From NCBI GenBank assembly GCA_000697665.1, contig KL197726.1, positions 378,637-442,636 of the forward strand: a stretch of DNA of 64,000 nt. The letters run 5' to 3'. The DNA comes from Jaapia argillacea MUCL 33604 (taxonomy: Eukaryota; Basidiomycota; Agaricomycetes; Jaapiales; Jaapiaceae). Position numbers and translations under genes: made by a program. Position 1 is the stretch's first letter; the number at the start of each line of letters is the position of its first letter. Of the stretch, positions 2,420 through 4,368 are shown one piece after another. Under the pieces are notes generated by a model that was not told the origin of the DNA, made no database searches, and worked only from the letters and a program-made list of their open reading frames with translations.

Positions 2420-4368
2420 CTATTCCTCCTTCTCAAAGGCCTTCCCATCCTGGTACGTCTTTACATCCTCGTTCCCCGCATTCCTATCAGCCTCAAACTG
2501 CTTCACTTCAGGCATAGACATCCAATCCATGACGTGATCAGACTATAACAAAGCGTCGAAACGGAATGCATTTAAGACGACCATTAAGATACTCAAAGGC
2601 TAGGAGAAGACGGACCTGCCACTTCTTGAACCAAAAACCAATGCCTTTATGGCTGTAATCCTTTTCATTTGCTTGGTCTTTATGGTACTTAACCTACATA
2701 GCGAAAAGAGAATGACAAACGGTGGTCAGGACTATTCACAAAGGAGTGACGACGAAGACGCGAACATCTCACCTGAATGAAATCCGAATCCTTCGTGGCA
2801 GGATCAAGAGAGAGCGATACCAACGCGTTGATAGTGACTGATTTGGTGAAGGGAGGGAGGAAAGTCCAGGTCTGTAAATGGGATAAAATGGCGTCACAGT
2901 TAGCGATACGCGATCACTAATGTGTGTGGGGGGGGCAGAGGTCAAGGTCGCCGGCCAAAAAATGATCAGAGTAACGAAACGCAATAGCATACACCCAGCT
3001 GCCGGAACATATATCAAAGAGACCCACCTGTTCATTCTTGAACTGGATCAATTCTGGATCATTCTTCACAACCTCATATCCTTCATTCTTCGATGCTTTG
3101 AACAGTTTCGGTAGGGCAAACCATTGGCCGGCCTGTGCAACCCAAATGTATCAGCTCTTCCACAGTTGCGAATCACGACCAAGGGGAGAGCGAGAGGAGA
3201 GACATACCATCTTGTACCGATTGTTAGCGTAAACGAATTGGTCGTCGTATACACAATCCGCAGCTAAACCGCGCATATAGCCAGTCAACTAATCGCCCAA
3301 AGCACCAGTTCACATAGCCTAATGGTAAACTAGTACTCACTATACCTCTTGACCCTCTCAACAGTCGGTTCCATACTGTAAAGCTTGATGATATCATCAA
3401 TCAACCTCTGCCTGTTGGGAGGGAGAGGGATAGAGTTTGTGGGGTTTGGTTTCCAGTCTTCGGAAGATGAGACGTTGCGGACTTCATAGGCTGCGCCTGG
3501 GGCTGGAGAGGGTTGGTGAGTTAGTTTGATACGAGAAACTCGGAAGGAGGGAAAGGACACACCATCGCCCTTCGGCAAGTCCGCACTGGAAGTCGTATCG
3601 TCAGTGGGCTTACTCAAAGTCCCGGTACTATCGTTGCCCCCGTAATGCAAACGTGACTGGTAGTGCAAGATCTCGTTTCTGAGGTTTCCTCCCTGCTCCG
3701 ATCCTCTTCAAAAAAATATGTTCATTCTATCTATTGGAACTAATGAGAATGCCCTATTTACATCTCGACTGGACAAGTCGAAGATGATGGAGAAATCAAA
3801 AACTGGCCGAAAATGGCCCATGTTACCGTGCAAGAATCTTGCACCGAGTACCATGCCGTTTCCACTTCAGATCCAGACCTACATAAATCAAGAGTTGTTT
3901 CACGGATGATATGGTGCTCACGATCCCGATTTTTATTTTGGAGAAAGTGAGGTCCTGAATATTGTAGAAACCATCTAATGCGAAGGGCGGAGCAAGCGTG
4001 ACACGGGATGCAAGATATTTTCAAGGTCCGATTGAATATCCGGCAGCGGGCAACGGGAACAGCCTCCAGACGGAGCTCAAATTTGGCCGCAAAGCCGCGT
4101 GACAAACCGTGATTTTTCTTGCACTTCAGGGGTCGAACTGATGCCTGGCGCGGCAGCCCTCCCCTGCTCGTCAAAGCCAATGAAAAAATGCAAGAAATTG
4201 TGGGGGTCATGTCTGTGTAGTATACATTATGGATTAAAAATTTTAGAGCCAACGGATGAAGCAACGAGGAACGGTAGGCAATGCAAGAAAATCTTGCATT
4301 ACGGGGGCAACGATAGTATCCTTGGCTTTGGACGGTGCGGAAGTTCCGTTTGAGGTGGAGGAAGACAT
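2420..4368 (-). CDS. NTF2/SnoaL-like conserved fungal protein, first exon split by a transposon-like element
   Basis: This is a conserved fungal protein of NTF2/SnoaL-like type; its function is unknown to me. The protein starts MSSSTSNGTSAPSKAKD (ATG at 4368-4366) and continues GTLSKPTDD after the insertion. It then has RLIDDIIKLYSMEPTVERV, DCVYDDQFVYAN, KMAGQWFALPKLF, KNDPELIQFKNEQ, TINALVSLSLDP and GIGFWFKKWQ, ending FEKEE with stop 2420-2422. Exons after the insertion: 3627-3563, 3502-3341, 3263-3208, 3132-3028, 2871-2773, 2693-2616, 2542-2420. A 689-bp element (3628-4316) with a TA duplication sits between codons for D and G. Removing the element plus one TA rejoins the frame exactly. Without splicing, translation from this ATG stops inside the element, so the gene is either disrupted or the element is spliced out. 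Confidence 0.75.
3628..4316. mobile_element. Non-autonomous TIR DNA element, TA target duplication (Tc1/mariner-like MITE)
   Basis: The ends are perfect 23-bp inverted repeats (3628-3650 and 4294-4316) starting CTATCGTTGCCC, flanked by TA at 3626-3627 and 4317-4318. The interior has no transposase and carries repeated TGCAAGA-type motifs. These include two small palindromes near 3833-3847 and 4281-4298, which look like subterminal binding repeats. The perfect repeats suggest a fairly recent insertion. The TA duplication fits Tc1/mariner, but superfamily assignment rests only on this. It lies inside the first coding exon of the NTF2-like gene. Confidence 0.8.

Follow-up and report, generated by a model that had tools for sequence, protein, structure and literature searches.

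The first coding exon of a minus-strand gene of Jaapia argillacea MUCL 33604 is interrupted by a short element with inverted ends. This locus raises the question whether the element is removed from the transcript as a newborn intron, so that the protein is kept, or whether it is an ordinary insertion by which the gene is knocked out. We considered the window, which is the whole stretch of 64,000 nucleotides that was analysed, together with the genome assembly (43.7 Mb in 95 contigs).

An inverted-repeat element in a coding exon

An earlier reading, made from the sequence only, had described an element of 689 bp, flanked by a TA duplication and ending in perfect terminal inverted repeats (TIRs) of 23 bp, within the first coding exon of the gene, and both the structure and the place were borne out by our analysis. 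The inverted arms at 3626-3650 and 4294-4318 are perfect over 25 nt including a TA on each side, which corresponds to TIRs of 23 bp, and the parts of the element are the following:

3628..4316, no strand: non-autonomous TIR transposon, MITE-like, 689 bp, on the basis of perfect TIRs, TA flanks and copies in the genome
3628..3650, plus strand: TIR arm 1, CTATCGTTGCCCCCGTAATGCAA
4294..4316, minus strand: TIR arm 2, inverted, 23/23 bases; holds the proposed donor GTAATG at 4302-4297 (gene sense)
3626..3627, no strand: TA target-site duplication, copy 1, on a basis that includes the single TA at the paralogous empty sites of two other copies
4317..4318, no strand: TA target-site duplication, copy 2, on the same basis

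The 25-mer made of TA and TIR has 13 matches in the genome at up to 3 mismatches and the reversed control pattern has none, so the TIRs are far beyond chance.

The interrupted gene is read on the minus strand, and its exon boundaries downstream of the element are predicted from the sequence:

4317..4368, minus strand: exon 1, part preceding the element, with the ATG at 4368-4366; MSSSTSNGTSAPSKAKD
3563..3627, minus strand: exon 1, part past the element, to the donor GTGTGT
3341..3502, minus strand: predicted exon 2
3208..3263, minus strand: predicted exon 3
3028..3132, minus strand: predicted exon 4
2773..2871, minus strand: predicted exon 5
2616..2693, minus strand: predicted exon 6
2420..2542, minus strand: predicted exon 7 with the stop codon

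The gene would therefore have seven exons, of which exons 2 to 7 are open, and six introns of the usual form (60, 77, 75, 156, 79 and 73 nt), and a TATA-like box, TATATAA, is found 111 nt upstream of its ATG. It is a single copy gene, as a query of 103 residues returned two matches in the genome, both of them its own exons. The name NTF2-like, which had been given to it by the sequence-only reading and which is presumably that of a fungal protein family, could not be confirmed: there was no match in Pfam or NCBIfam, and the best match in PDB had an E-value of 0.12. The host frame ...S-K-A-K-D / T-G-T-L... does rejoin, as had been said, when the element and one TA are taken away; this is true for any insertion with its duplication and is therefore not evidence of splicing.

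Copies of the element and their locations

A DNA search of the assembly gave 12 places, namely four complete copies, five partial copies and three short diverged relatives (82-90% identity), all counts from this search being lower bounds. The family comprises nine recent copies including that of the window, four of them complete (688-689 bp) and five cut by gaps. Identity to the window copy is 98.4-99.9% for the three other complete copies and 98.9-100% for the five gap-cut ones over their visible 193-496 bp, values which could be too high if reads shared among the repeats were used by the assembler to fill them. Compared with the window copy, C15 lacks one base and is otherwise without substitution over 688 aligned bases, C5 has six substitutions in 689 bases, and C10 has ten in 688 and likewise lacks one base. 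The 13 matches of the 25-mer are the 13 visible ends of the nine copies and all of them (13/13) have the TA flank, while a looser, gapped TIR pattern recovered 12 of these ends, the mutated C10 end being missed, and in addition the end of the diverged relative C12. The partial copies C47, C9, C28, C24 and C16 (at L013, L014, L015, L016 and L017) are broken off by runs of N, each 1.5 kb or longer, and such runs could hide larger, transposase-bearing relatives. The window copy has no differences from the majority sequence of the family, which is consistent with a very recent insertion. This is a small family of recently active, non-autonomous TA-target transposons (MITE).

Empty sites were searched for in the genome with the joined flanks of C15, C5 and C10 and with the single flanks of the five gap-cut copies. 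Paralogous stretches across the junction were found for C10 (78%, L064) and for C15 (80%, L065) and, when aligned, both have a single TA at the junction and lack the element, from which it follows that the element inserted with duplication of a TA. For C5, no paralogous stretch through the junction was found in the genome with the joined flanks, and a stretch paralogous to the flank of C16 is similar up to the base preceding the TA and then diverges. The window copy is without an empty site because its host gene is single copy.

Of the nine copies, only that of the window was shown to lie in an exon (1/9), six of the eight others being not well judgeable for exon position and five having one visible flank. 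An open-frame test over the joined junction was applied to the three other complete copies, the window copy giving 152 codons in the frame of the gene. C15, which sits between frames of 390 and 386 codons, has a frame over the junction of at most 71 codons and C10 one of at most 88 codons; C5 has frames of 192 and 185 codons over the junction, but lies beside a tandem array and is ambiguous. The visible flank of C47 is a repeat that is present at seven further places, and C16 is located between two hydrophobin-like copies. The visible flank of C24 has an ATG within about 55 bp, in a stretch (L016:2671-2800) that has a paralogue, L066 (C52:3114-3226), which may place the copy in a 5' region; the frame that opens with this ATG is closed by a TAG after a short distance. 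A family scan of nine proteins (the fragment of the host gene and eight flank ORFs) returned two matches, an STE3 pheromone receptor near C47 and a fungal hydrophobin near C16.

Coding potential and transposase genes

One long frame is found in the element:

3758..4315, minus strand: stop-free frame of 185 codons within the element, without family match

This frame is longer than those of 996 of 1000 dinucleotide shuffles, its length being reached in 4/1000, and the longest frames of the other three complete copies have 163, 124 and 172 codons. It matched no family in Pfam or NCBIfam, so that the element, as is expected of a MITE, has no recognisable transposase gene. We considered the frame as a coding gene and rejected this, since it has no family match and the longest frame is shorter in the other complete copies; we regard it as a remnant or due to chance.

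Transposase domains do occur in the genome, with 14 matches of DDE_1 and 27 of DDE_3, and in the 24 transposase loci examined of these 41 matches no convincing copy of the TIR of the element was found. The fuzzy TIR matches in L044 and L046 (5 and 6 edits in 23 bases, respectively) look like chance. Among the TIR-pattern matches (up to 3 mismatches, whole assembly) there was no larger element with the same ends. Other inverted-repeat pairs, with ends TACAGT... and TACACTGAGGGACAAAAGTATTTTGGGT, were observed in and around the DDE_1 and DDE_3 matches:

L040, 185-3243: inverted-repeat pair
L044, 2015-2808: inverted-repeat pair
L051, 1106-2664: inverted-repeat pair
L054, 780-2341: inverted-repeat pair

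Within the element, 3628-4316, the motif TGCAAG/CTTGCA occurs eight times in 689 bp (mean 0.44 and maximum 4 in 1000 shuffles), and one pair forms the palindrome TGCAAGAATCTTGCA. These motifs are perhaps transposase-binding repeats.

Effect of the insertion on the gene

If the transcript is unspliced and translation starts at the ATG, 24 codons follow the host K-D before a stop, for a total of 41 codons:

4243..4245, minus strand: first in-frame stop in unspliced read-through from the ATG, after 41 codons

From the last in-frame stop of the element to intron 1 the frame of the gene contains no ATG, and the first downstream in-frame Met is late in exon 2 (YSMEPT), a start at which would drop most of this exon. 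As the TATA-like box and the start codon are both upstream of the element, a transcript would enter it, and because of the stop after 41 codons and the lack of an in-frame ATG before the first intron the allele is expected to be null or, at best, to give a truncated protein. Two outcomes had been put forward earlier, a new intron or a knocked-out gene, and the second is the better supported, as judged by frame and stop.

The sequence of events that we propose would begin with a transposase supplied in trans, probably of the IS630-Tc1-mariner type in view of the TA target, that would have pasted the 689-bp MITE into a TA of coding exon 1 of this single-copy gene. Transcripts from the upstream TATA-like box, carrying the ATG, would run into the element and meet the stop after 41 codons, the alternative product being at best a truncated protein from the ATG late in exon 2. 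We estimate at about 0.82 the probability that the MITE insertion is an ordinary insertional mutation and that the sequenced allele is null or truncated at best. That no normal protein is made from the interrupted allele would be the likeliest outcome, and if the organism is dikaryotic an uninterrupted allele may be present in the other nucleus.

The gene could also be rescued by a route other than the splicing that was first proposed, through a cryptic promoter or start in or past the element, through the ATG of exon 2, or by a weak alternative splice. MITEs can carry regulatory sequence, and 18 further frame-keeping GT-AG pairs are available for splicing. These pairs, however, have donor and acceptor scores that sum to 2.62 or less, no in-frame ATG stands between the last stop of the element and intron 1 to serve such a start, and the Met of exon 2 would yield a protein without most of that exon; we consider a rescue of this kind unlikely.

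Splice sites in the element

The first of the two outcomes put forward by the sequence-only reading was a newborn, introner-like intron, which would restore the protein with about 15 extra residues:

3657..4302, minus strand: intron proposed by the sequence-only reading, 646 nt, donor GTAATG, acceptor TACCAG; unsupported

Several of the details on which this rested are correct. The GTAATG that starts at 4302 and the point 3656 at which the exon would continue are both in phase 0, and the translation does contain TIVAP and SRLHYGGNDS as the extra residues. The donor lies in a TIR, as was claimed; the left repeat of that account is, in gene sense, the TIR at the right of the plus strand. For reference we took 18 introns predicted in the same genome and derived simple donor and acceptor matrices from them. 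They belong to three genes, namely the interrupted one, a putatively GH5-like cellulase gene of the window and the STE3 receptor gene near C47, and form a small set whose boundaries were drawn from reading frames and from protein families.

The proposed donor, cccGTAATG, scores -1.64, which places it 19th among the 33 GTs in the stretch and below all 18 predicted host donors (3.7 to 9.9; 3.3 to 9.1 when each was left out in turn, with one, the lowest, at -0.2 and so only a little higher than the proposed donor), and it has a T at +5, where 18/18 of the host donors have a G. The acceptor TACCAG is acceptable, with a score of 5.14 and rank 4 among 37 AGs, so that of the usable splice sites that an introner has near both its ends one was found here and the other was not. 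The 60 nt preceding this acceptor contain no CTRAY branch site, which alone is weak evidence since 5/18 of the predicted introns are also without one, and the 646 nt of the proposed intron compare with 50-156 nt for the 18 predicted introns, being about four times the longest. Frame-keeping, stop-free GT-AG pairs number 16 if the donor is sought within the element or at its edge, and 19 with the donors of the upstream exon. Among these 19 the proposed pair ranks first, but its donor and acceptor sum is 3.51 against 9.2 to 15.5 for the 18 host introns, and among the six donors of these pairs only GTTGGC, with a score of -2.44, has a G at +5.

Pairs of this quality are also readily obtained from shuffled sequence. 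Dinucleotide shuffles of the element yielded a pair scoring at least as high as the proposed one in 221/500 cases and, with sites within 150 nt of the ends, some frame-keeping pair in 414/500; when both sites had to lie no more than 75 nt from the ends, base shuffles gave at least one pair in 319/500, the real element having 14. The element placed in neutral made-up flanks has an in-frame pair in 5/6 orientation and phase settings. A frame-keeping GT...AG, being common both in shuffles and across these settings, is therefore not evidence of an intron, and such a pair in a TIR element easily arises by chance. C10 reads CCCATAATG at the donor position and has lost the donor GT, which is retained in 3/4 complete copies.

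Some published features of introners do agree with the intron reading. One survey (PMC9860276) describes introners with TIRs and target-site duplications (TSDs), introners by which codons are added, and lengths with medians of 30-654 nt, a range into which 646 nt falls; fungal (ascomycete) introners are described there as being without TIRs and TSDs. Were an appreciable share of transcripts spliced at GTAATG/TACCAG, the element would be a TIR-bearing, TA-duplicating introner at birth in a basidiomycete, a combination unlike the fungal introners described in PMC9860276, and would show directly that an intron can arise from a DNA transposon in a fungus. With a poor donor, a pair at the level of chance, a long intron and the donor GT lost in C10, the proposed sites look like chance, and we hold such splicing, and with it the newborn intron, to be very unlikely. 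Least probable of all, and scarcely credible, is an assembly artefact, with reads of the repeat wrongly placed in a gene that has no insertion in the organism itself. The assembler did have trouble with this repeat, as 5/9 copies abut N runs, and C18 and C15 are identical over their 688 aligned bases, but the window copy is bordered by flanks of its own, shows the TA duplication in due form and is joined to the sequence on either side without a gap.

Comparison with known systems

An insertional mutation by a MITE agrees with what is known of the short elements of TA-target DNA transposons, which like the present one are short and transposase-less, with perfect TIRs, a TA duplication, near-identical copies and related empty sites having a single TA. 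Examples of MITEs of the IS630-Tc1-mariner group are the Stowaway-type elements and, in fungi, those derived from pogo/Fot1. Four features of MITEs are found together here, namely TIRs matching over 23/23 bp, the TA duplication, the absence of a transposase gene and near-identical copies of uniform length. An autonomous partner with the same TIRs was not found (pattern with up to 3 mismatches; 24 loci), though the gaps may hide one, and the TIR of the element, CTATCGTTGCCCCC, differs from the Tc1/pogo-type TIRs present in the same genome (TACAGT..., TACACTGAGGG...). IS630 and Tc1 were first connected with each other through the TA duplication that they share (PMC7325037).

With the TIR/TSD introners of Micromonas, Symbiodinium and others (Gozashti et al. 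2022, PMC9860276) the element shares a non-autonomous TIR structure, a location in a coding exon and a length within the range. It departs from them in its poor donor, in having no CTRAY and in the loss of the donor GT in C10, and the other copies in this genome gave no evidence of being introns. A fungal host and a repeated element in a gene are likewise found with the introner-like elements of ascomycetes (PMC4457414); these are without TIRs and TSDs according to PMC9860276, whereas the present element has both and is without convincing intron boundaries.

In the literature on basidiomycete MITEs, fungal introners, CpG methylation or RIP, and exonic MITEs we found nothing on the 689-bp element. 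Twelve of the TIR bases occur in planarian literature only, which we took as chance. The locus offers an ordinary but useful example of a recent MITE burst in which a coding exon was hit; two other copies have related empty sites, and one copy bears signs of decay directed at CpG.

CpG changes among the copies

C10 (L012:1979-2666) departs from the window copy by nine C>T or G>A changes, every one of them at CpG (9/9), and by a tenth difference that is T>C. CpG accounts for 72/321 cytosines when both strands are counted, which gives a hypergeometric P of about 1e-6 for this bias in a copy that was chosen for the test after the data had been seen. The pattern suggests CpG methylation followed by deamination, or a RIP-like process, behind the C>T changes. 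The C>T differences of C5, C9 and C28 (3, 3 and 2, respectively, partly shared) are also at CpG, and the C>G differences are not.
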